A DNA stretch of 43,848 bases, taken from NCBI GenBank assembly GCA_937958695.1, contig CALGNK010000049.1, forward strand, positions 1-43,848, read 5' to 3'. This stretch comes from an uncultured bacterium. GTDB lineage: Bacteria > DUMJ01. A model generated the notes under the pieces. The model worked only from the letters and a program-made list of their open reading frames with translations, ran no database searches and was not told the DNA's origin. Each line of letters begins with the position of its first letter. The stretch's first letter is position 1. Position numbers and translations under genes: made by a program. Shown piece after piece: positions 24,105 through 33,299 of the stretch.

Positions 24105-25070
24105 TCATAAAGAAGGATTGTATTCTAGGTCTTCCCACTTCCCACATCTTCCACCGAGTCGAGCTACCAGTTTACCTTCAATAAAGATATTTGTAATTTC
24201 ACAAAGATTTGAACACCCCTTACACTCAAATCCTCTAGTAGTTATGTCCTGGTCAACAATATCAAAACCCTTAAAGTTACTCTTTCTTATATTAGCCTCT
24301 TGCGCCAATAGTCCTGCTCCTATGGCTCCCATAAGTGAGAAGTATGGTGGAACTATAATCTCAGTTCCCAAGGCTCTTTCAAACGCAACTTTTATACCCT
24401 TATTAGCTGCGACTCCTCCCTGAAAGAGTATAGGAGGCAGTATCTCCTTTCCTCTTCCAACATTACTTAGATAATTTCTCACTAATGCCTCACACAAGCC
24501 AAATAATATATCCTCTCTTTTATGCCCCAATTGTTGTTTATGAATCATATCTGACTCCGCAAAAACAGTACATCTTCCAGCAATCCTCACTGGTTTCTGA
24601 GCCCTTAAAGCGACATCTCCAAACTCTTCTATAGGTATGCCAAGTCTCTGTGCTTGGTGATCAAGAAAAGAGCCGGTTCCTGCAGCACATACAGAATTCA
24701 TAGCAAAGTCGACTACTATGCCATCTCTTATGATAATAATCTTAGAATCTTGTCCTCCTATCTCTATTATTGTCTGTACTTTTGGGTTATAGTGTAAGCC
24801 TGCAACAGCATGGGCAGTGATCTCATTCTTTATAACATCAGCTCCTACTACTGCACCTATCAGAAATCTAGCGCTACCTGTGACCCCAACGCCATCTATC
24901 TTTAGGTCACTTCCAAACTGAGATTTTATCTTGAAAAATCCATCTTTGACTGCTTTTATCGGATCTCCAGCAGTTCTAAGATAGAGCCCTATTATGATAT
25001 TTCCTTTTTCGTCTATAATTGCTATGTCTGTACTTACAGAACCAACATCTATTCCTAGGAACTTCTTCAT
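24105..25070 (-). CDS. Acyl-CoA dehydratase activase (BadF/BadG/BcrA/BcrD ATPase family, COG1924)
   Basis: The 321-residue ASKHA-fold ATPase resembles HgdC, the [4Fe-4S] activator that drives an electron into 2-hydroxyacyl-CoA dehydratases. Motifs are the phosphate-1 loop GIDVGSVSTDIAII at residues 5-18, IIEIGGQDSKIIII with the adjacent SVCAAGTGSFLDHQAQRLGI segment, CTVFAESDMIHKQQ, and a second cysteine cluster near the end (FECKGCSNLCEI). Cys in CAAGTG and CTVFAE correspond to the HgdC cluster ligands. It overlaps the upstream COG3581 gene by 4 nt. No dehydratase subunits are in the window. Confidence 0.88.
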   Translation of the reverse strand: MKKFLGIDVGSVSTDIAIIDEKGNIIIGLYLRTAGDPIKAVKDGFFKIKSQFGSDLKIDGVGVTGSARFLIGAVVGADVIKNEITAHAVAGLHYNPKVQTIIEIGGQDSKIIIIRDGIVVDFAMNSVCAAGTGSFLDHQAQRLGIPIEEFGDVALRAQKPVRIAGRCTVFAESDMIHKQQLGHKREDILFGLCEALVRNYLSNVGRGKEILPPILFQGGVAANKGIKVAFERALGTEIIVPPYFSLMGAIGAGLLAQEANIRKSNFKGFDIVDQDITTRGFECKGCSNLCEITNIFIEGKLVARLGGRCGKWEDLEYNPSL

Positions 25071-26152
25071 ACCGCAATCCTCCGCCTCTTCTTGGTTTTT
25101 AACATGTCAATAAATGCCTCTATCCTAGTCGTTATACCAGCTAATCCTGTCTGTTCATCTATAGAAAGAGTTAATACTTGTATGTTATAGTCCTTACTTA
25201 CCTTTTCTAAAACTCCATCTGCCACTATCTCAGGCATACATGTAAATGGAGAAAGATGAATCACTCCGTCAAATCCCCTCTCTGCAAATTCTATTGTGTG
25301 AGCTATTGTTCTCTGTCCTTCACCTCCTACAGATCGTCTTATATATGGAAGAGCTACTCTAGTTCTTTCATCAATATCCTTACTTCTGAAAAGAGGTAAA
25401 TATATCCTAACAATATCCTCTATGTAAAATGCATTCTCAGCTAGAACTCCAAGTTCTCCTAGTCTTTTAGCTATTTCAAAATTTGTAAAGTGATCTAGTA
25501 CAACGTAAAACTCTCCAACTATACCTATCTTTACTAAATCTTTTAAACTATTCTTATCTATGATTTCATCCATAGTTTCCCTGTATTCTGATAATATTTG
25601 TCTTACCTTTAAAATATTATTAGCCTGATCTAGTCTTTTATGTGTCTCTCTTATTATATTGTCTACCTCTCCTTTATATCTCTCAAATGGCCTCGCTCTT
25701 CTAGATATCTTTTCTATCTCATCGATGGCTAAAACCTTTTCCCAGGCAAGACGGAGAACTTTCATCACCTTAATAATATTGCTTCTATTTGTTACCTTCT
25801 CTATACTTTTAAAAAGATTTATCCAACCATTAGAGAGGTCTAAAACAATCCAGTCTATATCATATCCTAAGTCTTTGAGTATACGCCTCTGGACCTCTGC
25901 ATAGTATCCAAAACGACACGGTCCTATTCCTCCCAACATAAGAATTGTATCAGCACCCTTTTCTATCGCCTCTATATAATTACCTAGAGTTATCTTTAAA
26001 GGAAGACATGCAAATTCAGGAGCATACTTTACTCCTATAGATAAAGTCCTATTTGTTGAGGGAGGAGGAGGAATCACCTCATGTCCAAAGTCTCTAAGGA
26101 AAGATTCAATTGCTATTCTAGCATCACCAAACGGGGGATAGGTTATCTTCAT
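25067..26152 (-). CDS. Acyl-CoA dehydratase activase-related protein (COG3581-like)
   Basis: The 361-residue protein resembles the COG3581 part of large CoA-dehydratase-activase-like proteins. Telltale blocks are YPPFGDARIAIESFL, PPPSTNRTLSIGVKYAPEFA with CLPLKITLGNYIEAIEKGAD next to it, and GGIGPCRFGYYAEVQ. Toward the C-terminus, HLSPFTCMPEIVAD and DEQTGLAGITTRIEAFIDML recall HgdB-type dehydratase subunits. Several conserved Cys (in FACLP, GPCRFG, FTCMPE) could bind an Fe-S cluster. In many bacteria this module is fused to COG1924 and COG3580. Here it is separate. Confidence 0.82.
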   Translation of the reverse strand: MKITYPPFGDARIAIESFLRDFGHEVIPPPPSTNRTLSIGVKYAPEFACLPLKITLGNYIEAIEKGADTILMLGGIGPCRFGYYAEVQRRILKDLGYDIDWIVLDLSNGWINLFKSIEKVTNRSNIIKVMKVLRLAWEKVLAIDEIEKISRRARPFERYKGEVDNIIRETHKRLDQANNILKVRQILSEYRETMDEIIDKNSLKDLVKIGIVGEFYVVLDHFTNFEIAKRLGELGVLAENAFYIEDIVRIYLPLFRSKDIDERTRVALPYIRRSVGGEGQRTIAHTIEFAERGFDGVIHLSPFTCMPEIVADGVLEKVSKDYNIQVLTLSIDEQTGLAGITTRIEAFIDMLKTKKRRRIAV

Positions 26153-26153
26153 A

Positions 26154-27101
26154 CTACTTCCTCCTGATTAACATATCTACAAAAGCCTCAAGTCTAGTAA
26201 TAAGTCCTAGTTCACTTGAATGTTCATCAACAGTAATAGTTATCTCTGGGAAATCAATAGGTTTTGTTAGATCTCTCTCTATTAACTCCCTTACAAGAGA
26301 GTCTGGACCACAGCCAAAAGCTACAACTATTATTATACCGTCTACAAGGCTCTTCCTTATAAAATATCTAGCAGTCCCATAAAGTTCTCTTCCAAATGTC
26401 CAAAAGAGCTTTTTAGGAAGTACATTAGCTTCTTTTAGTATGGTTTTCCAATCGACCATCTCCATAGATAGAACTTTTACTCCTAGACGATTTAATATCT
26501 TTATCATTCCACCACTTATAAATTCATCATATATTTCATAACAGTGTCCAACAATACCTATCCTTATCTTGAAGTTATCTTTTTCGTAATTCTTTCCGTC
26601 AAGTATTTCTAGGGGGGTAACTTCTCTTTTTAGTTTTTCATTGTAAGATTTAAGAGCCTTTAATCCTTCCATATATGCACTTAATATTTTTAGGCTATTT
26701 TTAGTAAAAAATCTTCCGAGTTCAAAGAATCCTTTAAAAAAACCGGTTAAAGAATTTCTCTTATCTATGGTTGGGTCTATAATAGGTGGTATATCTAGGT
26801 CTACACTCCTTATCATATCAGGTATCCCTATAAATTTAGGACACATATAGGTTCGGTATTCTAAACCAACTATCCTTGGTAGAAAAATGATGTCAACTTT
26901 ATCCTTTAGATCTAATATGTGTCCATATACTAACTTTATAGGTATGCATGCTTCGCTAACAGATTTCTCTATAGATAGGTCTACTATCTCCTTATTCGTT
27001 ATAGAAGAGGGGATGACTTCCAGACCTAAGGCTTCGAAGAAGGCCTTCCACATAGGATAGTATCTATAGAATAGTAGTATTCTTGGAATTCCAATCTTCA
27101 T
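26154..27101 (-). CDS. Acyl-CoA dehydratase activase-related protein (DUF2229/COG3580-like)
   Basis: The 315-residue protein opens with KIGIPRILLFYRYYPMWKAF, EALGLEVIPS and SEACIPIKLVYGHILDLKDK, which is the DUF2229 (COG3580) pattern. A later FGCGPDSLVRELIE and a C-terminal DEHSSELGLITRLEAFVDML echo its neighbour and HgdB-like proteins. Cys in SEACIP, TYMCPKF and FGCGPD are candidate cluster ligands. The stop and the next gene's start are separated by 1 nt. Substrate and partner enzyme are unknown. Confidence 0.82.
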   Translation of the reverse strand: MKIGIPRILLFYRYYPMWKAFFEALGLEVIPSSITNKEIVDLSIEKSVSEACIPIKLVYGHILDLKDKVDIIFLPRIVGLEYRTYMCPKFIGIPDMIRSVDLDIPPIIDPTIDKRNSLTGFFKGFFELGRFFTKNSLKILSAYMEGLKALKSYNEKLKREVTPLEILDGKNYEKDNFKIRIGIVGHCYEIYDEFISGGMIKILNRLGVKVLSMEMVDWKTILKEANVLPKKLFWTFGRELYGTARYFIRKSLVDGIIIVVAFGCGPDSLVRELIERDLTKPIDFPEITITVDEHSSELGLITRLEAFVDMLIRRK

Positions 27102-28065: not shown

Positions 28066-30138
28066 TTAAGATTCTTCCTCTTTTTCTTTTTTACTATTGG
28101 CTATTATTTCTTCTGCTATTTTACTAGGGACTACATCGTAGTGAGAAAACTCTACTCTGTATTTTCCTCTTCCCTGTGTTATAGATTTAAGGTCTATAGA
28201 GTATCTAAGTATTTCAGCCATAGGAACATGTGCCTTTATTATTTGGTACTTACCTTGTGGTTCCATTCCAATAATCTTAGCTCTTTTACTATTCAGATCT
28301 GCTATACAATCTCCCATAAACTCCTCTGGAACTATAACTTCAAGATACATAATAGGCTCAAGTAAAACCGGGTTAGCCTCAGCTGCTCCCTTCTTTAATG
28401 CCATAGAACCAGCTATCTTAAATGCCATATCAGAAGAATCTACAGGATGATAAGATCCGTCTACTAGAGTAACTCTTATATCAACCAAAGGATATCCAGC
28501 CAAGACTCCTTCCTCCATAGCCTCCTTTATGCCTTTTTCAACGGAAGGTCTATAGTTCTGAGGAATAGCTCCTCCAAAGATCTTATCTATAAATTCGTAA
28601 CCTCCACCTCTAGGAAGAGGTTCTAGCTCTATCCAGCAGTCACCATACTGTCCTCTACCACCTGTCTGACGTTTATATTTACCCTGGACCTTCACCTTAG
28701 TAGTTATCGTTTCTCTATAAGGAATCTTTGGCAATTCAGTATCCACCTCAACACCAAATTTCCTCTTAATTCTCTCTAGTATTACCTCTATATGTAAGTC
28801 TCCAAGCCCAGAGACTATAGTCTGATGAGTCTCAGTATTGTAGTAACTTATAAAAGTAGGGTCCTCTTCCTGAAGTCTACTAAGCGCATTACTAAGTTTC
28901 TCCTCATCTCCTTTTGATTTTGGTATAACCGCTACAGAATATAACGGTTGTGGAAACTTTATTGGGGCATATCTTACAGGATAAGACTTGTCACATAAGG
29001 TATCTGAAGTTCCTAAGGATTGGACCTTTGCAACTACCCCTATATCGCCAGTGATTATCTCTCCTGTTGGTTCTTGGTTTTTCCCCTTTGGAAAGGCTAG
29101 ATGTCCTAATTTTTCCTCTACACCTTTAGTTATATTTAATAGTGTTGTATCTGACTTTAGTGTTCCTGTATAAACTTTGAATAGAGCCAACTTTCCGACA
29201 AAAGGATCTGCCGTAGTTTTAAAAACAAAAGCAGATGGAGGCTTTGAAGGGTCAACCTTAGTTATGTTGATTGTTCCATCTTCATTTAGAATCTCTATTT
29301 TACCTTCTTCAGGAGAGGGTAAAAGTTCTTTAATTGTATCTAATAGCTGGTGCACTCCTATATTTTTGAGGGCGGATCCACATAGTAGGGGAAAAGCTTT
29401 GCCTTCTTTTATGGCAATTCTCATTCCTCTTAAAATCTCTTCATCGGAAATGGTTTCACCTTCTAGATATTTTTGAAGCAATTCATCATCATTCTCTACC
29501 ACAGCTTCTATAAGATGTTCTCTTAGCTCTTCTACCCTATCTTCGTACTCTTCAGGTAGAGGAATCTCTTGATAATTATTACTAGAAAATTTATATGCCT
29601 TTCTGCTTAGAATATCAATTATACCTGAAAAGTTTGCCTGTTCTCCAAGAGGTAATTGTAAGGCAAAGATTTTATTAGACAATCTTTCTCTTAGATCGTT
29701 ATAAACTTTAGAAAAGTTTGCACCTTCTCTATCTAGTCTATTTAAGAAAACTATTCGAGGTTTCCCTTGCTCTTCGAGAATATCCCAGAGCATCTCTGTA
29801 TTGACCTGGATCCCTGAAGATGCACAGACAAGTATTACCGCACTTTCTGCTACCTTTATTCCAGATAGAACATCTCCAATAAAGTCTGAATATCCAGGGG
29901 TATCTATAACGTTTATTTTACATTCCTTCCAAGGTGTAGGAAAAACTTTCAGCATAATAGTAGTCTTTCTTTTTATCTCTTCCGGTTCAGAGTCTACATT
30001 GCTATTTCCAGCATCCACACTGCCTAGTCTATCTACTAACTTAGCGTTAAATAAAATAGCATCAGTAAGTGATGTTTTACCCACTCCGCCATGAGATAGT
30101 AAAACTACATTTCTAATCTTTCCTGTTTCTAATTTCAT
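28066..30138 (-). CDS. EF-G-like translational GTPase (FusA-related, second-type EF-G)
   Basis: The 690-residue protein has the full EF-G layout: G domain, domain II, and domains III-V (QTIVSGLGDLHIEVILERIK in III; GGRGQYGDCWIELEPLP and SSDMAFKIAGSMALKKGAAE in IV; the LEVIVPEEFMGDCIADL fold in V). The G domain deviates from ordinary EF-G. The P-loop is SHGGVGKTS (15-23). Switch II is DTPGY (79-83), where canonical EF-G has DTPGH, so the catalytic His is Tyr. The base-recognition motif is NRLD rather than NKxD. This matches EF-G-2/EF-G-like paralogues rather than fusA1, which usually sits with rpsL/rpsG/tuf. The start ATG has a good GGAGGGA. Confidence 0.92.
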   Translation of the reverse strand: MKLETGKIRNVVLLSHGGVGKTSLTDAILFNAKLVDRLGSVDAGNSNVDSEPEEIKRKTTIMLKVFPTPWKECKINVIDTPGYSDFIGDVLSGIKVAESAVILVCASSGIQVNTEMLWDILEEQGKPRIVFLNRLDREGANFSKVYNDLRERLSNKIFALQLPLGEQANFSGIIDILSRKAYKFSSNNYQEIPLPEEYEDRVEELREHLIEAVVENDDELLQKYLEGETISDEEILRGMRIAIKEGKAFPLLCGSALKNIGVHQLLDTIKELLPSPEEGKIEILNEDGTINITKVDPSKPPSAFVFKTTADPFVGKLALFKVYTGTLKSDTTLLNITKGVEEKLGHLAFPKGKNQEPTGEIITGDIGVVAKVQSLGTSDTLCDKSYPVRYAPIKFPQPLYSVAVIPKSKGDEEKLSNALSRLQEEDPTFISYYNTETHQTIVSGLGDLHIEVILERIKRKFGVEVDTELPKIPYRETITTKVKVQGKYKRQTGGRGQYGDCWIELEPLPRGGGYEFIDKIFGGAIPQNYRPSVEKGIKEAMEEGVLAGYPLVDIRVTLVDGSYHPVDSSDMAFKIAGSMALKKGAAEANPVLLEPIMYLEVIVPEEFMGDCIADLNSKRAKIIGMEPQGKYQIIKAHVPMAEILRYSIDLKSITQGRGKYRVEFSHYDVVPSKIAEEIIANSKKEKEEES

Positions 30139-30265: not shown

Positions 30266-31537
30266 TTACTTTTCCTTCTCTATTTTTAAATCATTGTATA
30301 AACTTGAATTTTTTTCTAATACCCTAAATAAAGCTGAAACTACTTTAGGGTCTAATTGGGAATTTGCACTCTTAGAAAGTTCTATCTTAGCTTCTTCTAT
30401 CCCTTTCCTCTTTGAATAGGGTCTATCTGTAGTTATAGCATCGAAGGCATCTGCACAGGCTATTATACGACTTTCTATAGGAATGTATTCTCCTCTTAGA
30501 CCATCCGGATATCCATTCCCATTGTATCTTTCATGGTGGTGTCTTATCCAAAGAGGAACCTCCTTAAATCTAGATATTTCTTTAGATAAATCTTCTCCTA
30601 CTATTGGATGCTTGTAAATCTGCGTCCATTCTTCTTTGGTAAGTTTGTCTGGTTTATTTAGTATATTCAGAGAGAGTCCTATTTTACCTAGGTCATGTAG
30701 TAAGGCTGCGTTCCTTATCCTTTCTATCCTAGTTTCACTAAGTCCCATCTCTCGTGCTATATCTTCAGCTAACTGAGCTACCCTTAAGGAGTGGCTACTA
30801 GTGTAACTATCAAAGACGCCTAAAAGCTTTATAAGGGTAGATATAGCCTGATCATACGTTCTACTTACTTCACTAGCTAGGATAAAGAGATACCTAGCAA
30901 TAAATATAGGAACTATATATATTGGCATAACTACAGGACCCAATAACTTATAACTTTGTGCTATTACTAGAGCCAAAAAGAAGTGTAAAAGATATGTAAT
31001 AATAGATATATTTGAGATATAGTAGGCCAAAGTTCCTATAAATCTTCTCCCTTTATCTACAGAAACTACTAGGCTTAAAAGTGTAACATTGGAAAACCAG
31101 TAAACGAGTGCAATCGATAAGGCTACTAAAAAGTAACGCCATCCAAAATCAAGAGATGGGCCATTTAGAATTTCATATAGCAATCCAGCTAATCCGGCGC
31201 ATATTACTAGATTAGCTCTATTAAATATAAATTTCTTAGGCTCATGAAGTCTAAAATTAAACTCTTCAGGGCTTATAGAACCTAGTCCATTCAAAAGTAT
31301 GCCGATAGGAGCTCCAAATAAGAGTATTCCTGCATAAGAAAGCGTAAAACCCATAGAAAGAGCGATCTGTCTACCCGGTATTTCAACAGGAAAAGCCTCT
31401 AGTATTAAGGCTAAAGCCAAAAGTATAATCACGTCGGTTAAGCTTGCCCTGAAATGGTAAGATTTAATTATATATATAGATAAAGATATAGCAATGATAG
31501 AAAGTATATAGATAATTCTACCTGTCTCTTTCCTCAT
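30266..31537 (-). CDS. Membrane-anchored HD-GYP c-di-GMP phosphodiesterase
   Basis: HD-GYP enzymes hydrolyse c-di-GMP. The 423-residue protein has an N-terminal membrane domain of about six helices (residues ~8-220), resembling MASE-type sensory modules, and a C-terminal HD-GYP domain from ~228. The metal and signature residues are present: SSHSLRVAQLA, HDLGKIG, KHPIVGE, IRHHHERYNGNGYPDGL and ADAFDAITTDRPY. Both HD and GYP motifs are intact, so it should be active. It overlaps hpf by 4 nt (ATGA). It may set the c-di-GMP level read by the PilZ protein at 14446-15108, which is an inference. Confidence 0.92.
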   Translation of the reverse strand: MRKETGRIIYILSIIAISLSIYIIKSYHFRASLTDVIILLALALILEAFPVEIPGRQIALSMGFTLSYAGILLFGAPIGILLNGLGSISPEEFNFRLHEPKKFIFNRANLVICAGLAGLLYEILNGPSLDFGWRYFLVALSIALVYWFSNVTLLSLVVSVDKGRRFIGTLAYYISNISIITYLLHFFLALVIAQSYKLLGPVVMPIYIVPIFIARYLFILASEVSRTYDQAISTLIKLLGVFDSYTSSHSLRVAQLAEDIAREMGLSETRIERIRNAALLHDLGKIGLSLNILNKPDKLTKEEWTQIYKHPIVGEDLSKEISRFKEVPLWIRHHHERYNGNGYPDGLRGEYIPIESRIIACADAFDAITTDRPYSKRKGIEEAKIELSKSANSQLDPKVVSALFRVLEKNSSLYNDLKIEKEK

Positions 31538-32094
31538 AAGGTAACCTCTATGAGTCCATACCCTCCTTCTTTTCTAACATATACAACATTTATTTCTGAA
31601 GTATCTGCGTTTACAAAGATGAAGAAATCATGCCCGAGAAGTTCCATTTGGAGCAATGCCTCTTCTACTGACATAGGAGTAACATTCAATCTCTTTCTCC
31701 TTATAATCCTGTCAGATAGTGCCCCTTCTTCAGTCTCTTCTAGCTGAGTAGTCTCTTCTGGTAATTCGGATCTTTCACTTGATTTTGACCTACCTCTATC
31801 CAATAATTTACCTTTGAAAGTTTTTATCCTTCTTTCTAACTTATCTACCACTAGGTCTACAGATGCGTACATATCTGAGGTCGCCTCTTGGGCTCTTATT
31901 ATCTTACCATTTATCCTTGCTGTTACTTCTACCTTCTGAGTGGTGCCTGAACTTTTACTATTACTAGTACTAAGTACTACTTGAATATCAGAAATTCGAC
32001 TAAAAAATCTATCTAACTTACCTAGTTTCTTCCTTATATAGTTCTCCAAGGCATCAGTAACTTCTATATTTCTTCCCTTTATAACTATATCCAT
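31534..32094 (-). CDS. hpf: Long-form ribosome hibernation promoting factor HPF
   Basis: HPF binds the decoding centre of resting ribosomes, and its long form dimerises 70S into 100S. The 186-residue protein has the N-terminal S30AE domain (about 1-100; VIKGRNIEVTDALENYIRKK, IRAQEATSDMYASVDLVVDK and LERRIKTFKGKL) and, after a charged linker, the C-terminal dimerisation domain (about 128-186; VTPMSVEEALLQMELLGHDF and FIFVNADTSEINVVYVRKEG). ATG 32094 has an ideal AGGAGG. It starts only 24 nt after the RAMP-like gene, so both are probably on one transcript. The usual neighbour secA is absent. Confidence 0.95.
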   Translation of the reverse strand: MDIVIKGRNIEVTDALENYIRKKLGKLDRFFSRISDIQVVLSTSNSKSSGTTQKVEVTARINGKIIRAQEATSDMYASVDLVVDKLERRIKTFKGKLLDRGRSKSSERSELPEETTQLEETEEGALSDRIIRRKRLNVTPMSVEEALLQMELLGHDFFIFVNADTSEINVVYVRKEGGYGLIEVTL

Positions 32095-32118: not shown

Positions 32119-33006
32119 TTAGGGAACATAATCCTTAATAGTCTCTTCTAAAACCAACTGGTAGTTCTTGTCTAATGCTTTCTCTAGAAGTTCTTTCTCT
32201 TGAGGCGTCAAATTCTCACCTATAATGTATATCGAGTGACCTTGCTTACCAGAAAAACTCCTAACAATAATCTTAGATTTGCCACCCATATAACCCATCA
32301 GTTTGCATACTGGACAAGGGATATCTCTAGGATTACATACAGTATTACTCCCAGGGTGTTTAATCTTAGTAATTTCCAACAGTTTTCTTCTTAATTCTCC
32401 TCTAAAGACATTAGATGAAACCTTCCTATCTATGTTTACTTTATAGTATGTCCTACTTATAAATGGACCTATATTAGCATATGCTCTTTTCCAACCACTC
32501 CAGTTTCTCTTTATACGACTAAAGATGCTCTGTATTAGTCTTACTAGAGATGGATTGTAATACTTTTCCTCTTTAAAAAGTTCGGAGAATTTTTCCTTTA
32601 AATTTTTAGGAATTCCATTAGGATTAACTATTATTATCTGGTTATATCCAAAACCTTGAGACGTATTTGCCCCTATTCCAGTATTTTGTAACGACTTTAA
32701 AGCAGCTAGGTATATATCTAAGTCTTTCTCATTGACTTCTAAAGAAAAATAGATATCGTTTTTGAAAAATTCCTGCCCTTTTATCTTCACTATATTAGGT
32801 TCTTCAGGAGTAACTCCGTCACTTACCCTAGGAGGGGATATTTGTCTATTCAAAGGTATAGCAAATCTAAGAGCTTCTGAATATATTTGGGTAGTCAATA
32901 TAATACTTGGTATATAAGGTTTATTCCTAAAGTCTCTAACTTGAGCTCCGGTGCCATACCCTATGTGGCAAGGATTTTTAAACTTCAAAATACAGCGTAA
33001 TTCCAT
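32119..33006 (-). CDS. Orphan RAMP-superfamily-like protein (Cas7/Csm3-like features), no CRISPR locus
   Basis: The 295-residue protein looks like a RAMP-fold RNA-binding protein. The N-terminal half has KFKNPCHIGYGTG, RDFRNKPYIPSI and the glycine-rich loop TGIGANTSQGFG (residues 109-120), in the order seen in Cas7-type proteins. The second half has NVFRGELRRKL (199-209), like the S-x-x-RG-x-LR helix of Csm3/Cmr proteins, and C-x6-C-x2-C (Cys224, 231, 234, followed by KLMGYMGG), like the CPxCxLFG metal-binding insert. I chose ATG 33006. An upstream TTG at 33024 would overlap the GGAGG site itself. No array, cas1/cas2 or Cas10 is present. Function is unknown. Family assignment by eye is moderate. 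Confidence 0.6.
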   Translation of the reverse strand: MELRCILKFKNPCHIGYGTGAQVRDFRNKPYIPSIILTTQIYSEALRFAIPLNRQISPPRVSDGVTPEEPNIVKIKGQEFFKNDIYFSLEVNEKDLDIYLAALKSLQNTGIGANTSQGFGYNQIIIVNPNGIPKNLKEKFSELFKEEKYYNPSLVRLIQSIFSRIKRNWSGWKRAYANIGPFISRTYYKVNIDRKVSSNVFRGELRRKLLEITKIKHPGSNTVCNPRDIPCPVCKLMGYMGGKSKIIVRSFSGKQGHSIYIIGENLTPQEKELLEKALDKNYQLVLEETIKDYVP

Positions 33007-33034
33007 TCCTATTTCTACCTCCAAGTTAAATTGT

Positions 33035-33064: not shown

Positions 33065-33073
33065 ATTATACCA
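33065..33073 (-). promoter_or_regulatory. Extended -10 promoter for the RAMP-hpf-HD-GYP transcript
   Basis: On the minus strand this reads TGGTATAAT, a perfect TATAAT with the TG-N extension that can replace a -35 box. It lies about 60 nt upstream of the RAMP-like ATG, leaving a leader of roughly 50 nt. No other promoter fits in the 24-nt gap before hpf. Confidence 0.55.
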
Positions 33074-33095: not shown

Positions 33096-33299
33096 TTACT
33101 CTTTTTTTTCTCTTTTTTCTTCTAAGGAGCTTTTTAGATCAGAGTAGCCAAATATAGCTAATATTACCCCAAGGATAATTAAGATTGGTGGAACTATAGC
33201 CATTAGTCCTTTTATAAAATAACCCCACCAAGCAGAGATGCCCCATATACCTAGAATAAGACACACTATACCACCTAGTATGACAAGAATTTTACTCAT
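33096..33299 (-). CDS. Small two-helix membrane protein, 67 aa
   Basis: The start is taken as ATG 33299, preceded by GGAGG with an 8-nt spacer. An in-frame GTG 9 nt upstream overlaps that site and is unlikely. The 67-residue product has two hydrophobic helices (about 3-20 and 27-49; SKILVILGGIVCLILGIWGI and IVPPILIILGVILAIFG) and a highly charged C-terminal tail (SSLEEKREKKE). Such proteins are common and mostly uncharacterised. It has its own promoter and may read through to the RAMP-like gene 90 nt downstream, as I see no terminator between them. Confidence 0.7.
   Translation of the reverse strand: MSKILVILGGIVCLILGIWGISAWWGYFIKGLMAIVPPILIILGVILAIFGYSDLKSSLEEKREKKE

Follow-up and report, generated by a model that had tools for sequence, protein, structure and literature searches.

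Why should a protein that resembles the RNA-binding subunits of CRISPR effector complexes be encoded beside the hibernation gene hpf, outside any CRISPR-Cas locus? The gene in question lies in a contig of an uncultured bacterium, which we analyzed as a single window of 43,848 nucleotides. Below, G000 denotes the genome of this contig, while G001 and G002 denote the genomes of two sister species in the same genus; all three are drafts. The orphan protein is basic and its gene appears to start at an ATG at position 33006, from which residues are numbered. A longer version in the open reading frame listing, with a TTG start that overlaps the Shine-Dalgarno sequence, is probably wrong, because the ATG has its own upstream GGAGGT that is kept in a sister species. 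The four motifs quoted in the preliminary description (PYIP, TGIGANTSQGFG, FRGELR, and C-x6-C-x2-C-KLMG) all fall within this one minus-strand frame, from 33006 to 32119, with TGIGANTSQGFG corresponding to residues 109 to 120. Both GC content and GC3 of the gene match those of its neighbors. A PHROGs search with the protein returned no match, and an Rfam scan of the window returned no RNA family. Features of the locus are collected in Table 1, including a TATAAT that was not among the promoter matches listed by a consensus scan.

Table 1. Features of the orphan gene, its protein, and the adjacent genes, in window coordinates.
Feature	Position	Strand	Basis or remark
Possible -10 box of the operon, TATAAT	33065..33070	-	Shared by G000 and G002 in a diverged spacer; weak
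Shine-Dalgarno sequence of the orphan gene, GGAGGT	33017..33022	-	Identical in one sister species
Orphan double-RAMP protein gene	32119..33006	-	295 aa, basic, pI 9.6
Unit 1, residues 1-139, Csm3-like RRM with Gly loop	32590..33006	-	Profiles, alignment, model, PDB matches
CHIG after strand 1 (H14), at the LHIG position of Csm3	32959..32970	-	Csm3 alignment
PYIP, residues 30-33, preceding helix 1	32908..32919	-	Csm3 alignment
Gly-rich loop, GIGANTSQGFG	32647..32679	-	In register with the Csm3 Gly loop
Basic helical linker, residues 140-183, pI 10.1	32458..32589	-	AF2 helices (low confidence), composition, conservation
Unit 2, residues 184-295, Cas7/Csm3-like RRM with Cys knuckle	32122..32457	-	AF2, PDB match, hhalign
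FRGELR, residues 201-206, counterpart of GSSLKGxLR	32389..32406	-	hhalign and alignment
C-x6-C-x2-C-KLMG (C224, C231, C234), predicted metal knuckle	32293..32337	-	Aligns with the Cys knuckle of Csm3/III-D-like Cas7
hpf (long form)	31534..32094	-	Pfam S30AE and S30AE_C; 24 bp downstream of the RAMP gene
Membrane HD-domain (HD-GYP-like) protein	30266..31537	-	Pfam HD_5; 4-bp overlap with hpf
EF-G-like GTPase, next same-strand gene	28066..30138	-	Pfam EF-G domains; 128-bp gap

Profile searches indicated that the motifs claimed as typical of Cas7/Csm3/Cmr-type proteins are more than a chance resemblance. The protein passed the cut-off of the Pfam RAMPs family (PF03787; E = 1e-6, 29.8 bits against a cut-off of 22.1) and matched the PADLOC profile for Csm3 (E = 6.2e-10). 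Matches to narrower families were weaker. The NCBIfam Csm4 profile TIGR01903 covered residues 77 to 134 but failed its cut-off (5.9e-6, 25.8 bits against 55), and the Csm3 equivalog TIGR02582 was absent from the NCBIfam matches listed at E ≤ 10. Two Pfam Cas6 profiles stayed below threshold (16 bits against 23 and 13.2 bits against 25), the best matches to Cas7_IIId and Cas7_IIIg profiles were about 0.006 to 0.01, and the best PDB sequence match, a type VII Cas7, was not significant (E = 0.11). At the level of sequence, these results support a Cas7/Csm3-like member of the RAMP superfamily, and we file it no more narrowly than that because the Csm3 and Csm4 equivalog cut-offs were both failed.

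As read from the alignments, the protein is a tandem of two compact Cas7/Csm3-like units with complementary losses, because each of them matches the helix-1 region of Csm3. For that reason, we rejected a single RAMP with shuffled or permuted parts. The earlier impression of one RAMP unit split into two halves in an unusual order holds for the order of the motifs, but not as a single rearranged RAMP, since two units are present.

Unit 1 alone passed the Pfam RAMPs cut-off (2e-5, 25.6 bits) and matched the PADLOC Csm3 profile (2.6e-7). Against Csm3, it gave two collinear alignments (6e-4 and 0.009), whose pieces run from strand 1 to the PYIP helix and over the Gly loop, which precedes the last strand. 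Three parts of Csm3 are missing from the aligned unit: GSSLKG, which comes next after PYIP in Csm3; the whole Zn-knuckle region; and the segment that carries the catalytic Asp, where the Csm3 rows read GG-D-NP(V/I) and unit 1 has a 9-column gap. RNA cleavage by the Csm3 of Streptococcus thermophilus requires D33 (PMC5965380). Because the corresponding segment is absent, Csm3-like slicing by the orphan is unlikely. When AlphaFold was given only the two full-length sequences, residues 1 to 189 were modeled at a pLDDT below 50 and the N-terminal unit below 30. When unit 1 was folded from an alignment that included ten Csm3 rows, its model reached a pLDDT of 71 and a pTM of 0.72, and it had 35 PDB matches at E ≤ 1e-3, to chains from Csm or type VII complexes. 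These matches are supporting rather than independent evidence, because the Csm3 rows were built into the alignment used for folding.

For unit 2, the C-terminal part alone gave only a weak match to a Cas7 profile (0.006), and the assignment comes from profile-profile alignment and structure prediction. Using hhalign with families assembled from fetched loci, we aligned unit 2 to 23 Csm3 sequences (E = 3e-6, probability 88%); the aligned region spans the RG helix, the Cys knuckle, and the following strand. An unrelated HPF control scored 0.07 or worse in such comparisons (0.075 in that of unit 2). The Gly loop is absent from this unit. The cysteines of its knuckle are conserved in the sister species, and H217 is a possible fourth ligand of the predicted metal site. 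From only two sequences and with no RAMP helpers, AlphaFold predicted a β-α-β-β-α-β unit at a pLDDT of about 70 to 88. The top PDB structural match of this model was a type VII Cas7 chain (8yhe_A; E = 3.6e-3, probability 1.00). Thus, the ferredoxin-like RAMP fold on which the preliminary description had staked its reading is predicted for unit 2, with a Cas7 chain as its closest structure.

Unit 1 shares with Csm3, a member of the Cas7 group found in types III-A and III-D, the first strand with HIG, PYIP, and the Gly loop, and unit 2 shares the RG-LR helix, the Cys knuckle, and the strand after it. Unlike Csm3, the orphan would hold two units per chain, of about 110 to 139 amino acids each, with no catalytic-Asp segment, no GSSLKG in unit 1, and no Gly loop in unit 2, and it sits outside a cas10-csm operon, with hpf and an HD-domain gene as neighbors. 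Chains with more than one Cas7-like unit are known from the III-D Cas7 fusions, the III-E gRAMP, and the "double Cas7" Cmr1. The orphan resembles them in this respect, and its knuckle is III-D-like, but it is much shorter and lies outside any CRISPR locus. Type VII Cas7 proteins (8yhe and related) provided the best structural match for the unit 2 model, with a sequence match that was not significant. In the Csm4/Cas5 architecture, a RAMP unit with a Gly loop is followed by a second RRM with a degraded Gly loop (PMC3150331). The orphan likewise has a second domain after its Gly-loop unit, but this domain is Csm3-like with a Cys knuckle, and a Cas10 partner is not beside it. In topology, then, the orphan resembles Cas5/Csm4, while in sequence it resembles Csm3.

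The surroundings of the gene are those of the core chromosome, as judged from livJ/H/M/G, metK, and priA (read by sequence) and def, fmt, and rsmB (by Pfam) on the same contig. Pfam assigned the neighbors examined to hpf, HD-domain, EF-G-like, LCP, CoA-enzyme-activase, def, fmt, and rsmB genes. No Cas genes were among them, as the preliminary description had stated. The 24-bp spacing and the conserved Shine-Dalgarno sequence are best read as signs of a RAMP-hpf-HD operon that begins with the orphan, and the junction between the RAMP gene and hpf is identical in arrangement across the three species. HPF puts ribosomes to sleep, a state known as ribosome hibernation. Immediately upstream of the RAMP gene (33096-33299, minus strand) lies a gene for a 67-amino-acid membrane peptide, with a strongly similar counterpart in G002. 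Downstream of the LCP gene (24105-27101, minus strand), a three-gene cluster encodes DUF2229, HGD-D-like, and BcrAD/BadFG CoA-enzyme-activase proteins.

Within our genome set, the lineage consists of one genus, the next relatives being related only at the level of the same domain. G002 carries a complete copy of the orphan, 91% identical to that of G000 and directly upstream of hpf. In G001, the last 59 residues are preserved at a contig edge and are followed by hpf. Between the two full copies, substitutions avoid the motifs, and dN/dS was 0.049 (NG86) or 0.066 (YN00), next to NG86 values of 0.045 for the EF-G-like gene, 0.045 for metK, and 0.073 for hpf. The orphan is therefore under strong purifying selection, comparable to that on these three genes. 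A profile search of 383 genomes outside the genus recovered no homologue, nor did searches of three small phyla. No match was found in phages, plasmids, or viral contigs, and a phage or plasmid origin was rejected on this basis. Looking for the same gene beside hpf in other genomes, as the preliminary description had proposed, we found it in the two sister species but not beyond the genus, where 27 hpf loci, scanned with the profile over their fetched flanks of about 1.5 kb, contained no orphan. hpf itself was present in 315 of 386 sampled genomes; with the orphan in one genus, HPF does not need it. In a PF03787 search of 115 genomes, RAMPs occurred in 35, nearly always as at least two per genome. 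Vertical inheritance within the genus is the best reading of this distribution.

CRISPR-Cas systems were found elsewhere in all three genomes, with arrays looked for only near the fetched loci. In G000, a III-C operon contains every effector gene expected (cmr1, cmr6, cas10c/csx11, cmr4, cmr5, and cmr3), and a I-B-like locus, assigned from position and sequence features with Cas1 confirmed, carries cas6, cas8, cas7, cas5, cas3, cas4, and cas1. Its Cas6-like gene was recognized from position and a C-terminal Gly loop; PF10040 was unmatched in G000. With these loci in hand, we could dismiss the orphan both as a missing subunit of the type III system of its own genome and as a missing Cas6. Directly adjoining the III-C operon are an adenine methyltransferase and an HNH-type endonuclease gene, a restriction-modification-like pair (G000:C11, 7909-9313). 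G001 has a III-A system (cas10 and csm2 to csm5), and, at the end of another contig by cas1, CRISPR repeats GTTTGTAGCTAACCTATAAGGGATTGAAAT of 30 nt with a 67-nt period (G001:C143, 5673-5877). G002 has a III-B system, with cmr3 to cmr6 on one contig and another RAMP on a different contig. The III-A locus of G001 (C137, 1-6478) and the III-B locus of G002 (C135, 236-4733) occupy the same chromosomal place, with shared zinc-ribbon-type, radical-SAM-like, and etfB-like flanking genes, so the type III subtype has been swapped at one site.

These systems bear directly on the leading alternative, namely, that the orphan is an accessory subunit working in trans with the type III (or I-B) machinery, where it might cap a Csm/Cmr backbone or hold crRNA. 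Each of the three species has a type III system, and the closest family, Csm3, is itself a backbone subunit. However, the III-C operon already holds all its effector genes, and the orphan stays beside hpf throughout, 91% identical between its full copies, while the subtype changes from III-C to III-A to III-B. This constancy is our chief reason for thinking that the orphan is no component of those systems. The preliminary description had named membership in a distant type III locus of the same genome as the outcome that would count against it; the complete III-C set and the differing subtypes of the sister species both speak against such membership. Independence from the local Cas loci is accordingly supported, and we regard an in-trans role as unlikely. 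Somewhat less likely again is a Cas6-like endoribonuclease that would process cellular RNA through H14 of CHIG. This residue is present in both full copies, its location fits that of the Cas6 catalytic His just after strand 1 (PMC3150331), and Cas6 likewise has two RRMs. Yet a His at this position is also common in Csm3, the Cas6 profiles that fell below cut-off covered only the Gly-loop stretch, and the orphan carries its Gly loop in the first unit, whereas Cas6 has it in the second.

An antiviral or other defense protein that came to lie in the chromosome core by chance is improbable: the RAMP families in the 2011 classification were all CRISPR or CRISPR-like (PMC3150331), but the orphan evolves slowly, in the manner of a housekeeping gene, its position is fixed, and no other defense gene was among the Pfam-examined neighbors. 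Least credible of all is the idea that a type III locus was lost and left this gene behind to decay. Parts are indeed missing from each RAMP unit, but the frame is open in two species and its 3' end intact in the third, dN/dS is about 0.05, and the Shine-Dalgarno sequence is conserved. Purifying selection of this strength refutes the remnant reading in practice.

The explanation we favor, with a probability of about 0.5, is a domesticated RNA-binding protein of the Cas7/Csm3 family, probably with no Csm3-like slicing, that acts with HPF in hibernation or translation shut-down. Two RRM-type RAMP units and the basic helical linker would bind cellular RNA, perhaps a structured or single-stranded segment of rRNA, mRNA, or a small RNA. 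Contacts would be made by the linker and by unit 1 with its Gly loop, and the metal knuckle would hold unit 2. Probably lacking Csm3-type RNA slicing, the protein would join HPF in ribosome hibernation or in shutting down translation. We infer RNA binding from the fold, the basicity, and the Gly loop, and a part in hibernation from gene order, which is seen in one genus only. The adjacency to hpf in a single genus may instead be that of neighbors linked by descent.

A stronger proposition, which we hold more tentatively, is that domestication went to completion in this one-genus lineage: a CRISPR subunit of the Cas7 type would have become an RNA-binding protein of the translation or hibernation apparatus, encoded on the chromosome and with a non-CRISPR function. 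Among open-access papers, we found no precedent for stand-alone, orphan, or domesticated RAMPs. If true, a piece of a CRISPR effector would have become a housekeeping protein that binds RNA, which would be a rarity; descent from a pre-CRISPR RAMP is a less likely alternative origin. The orphan would also offer a small, testable protein for RAMP function outside a guide-RNA system.
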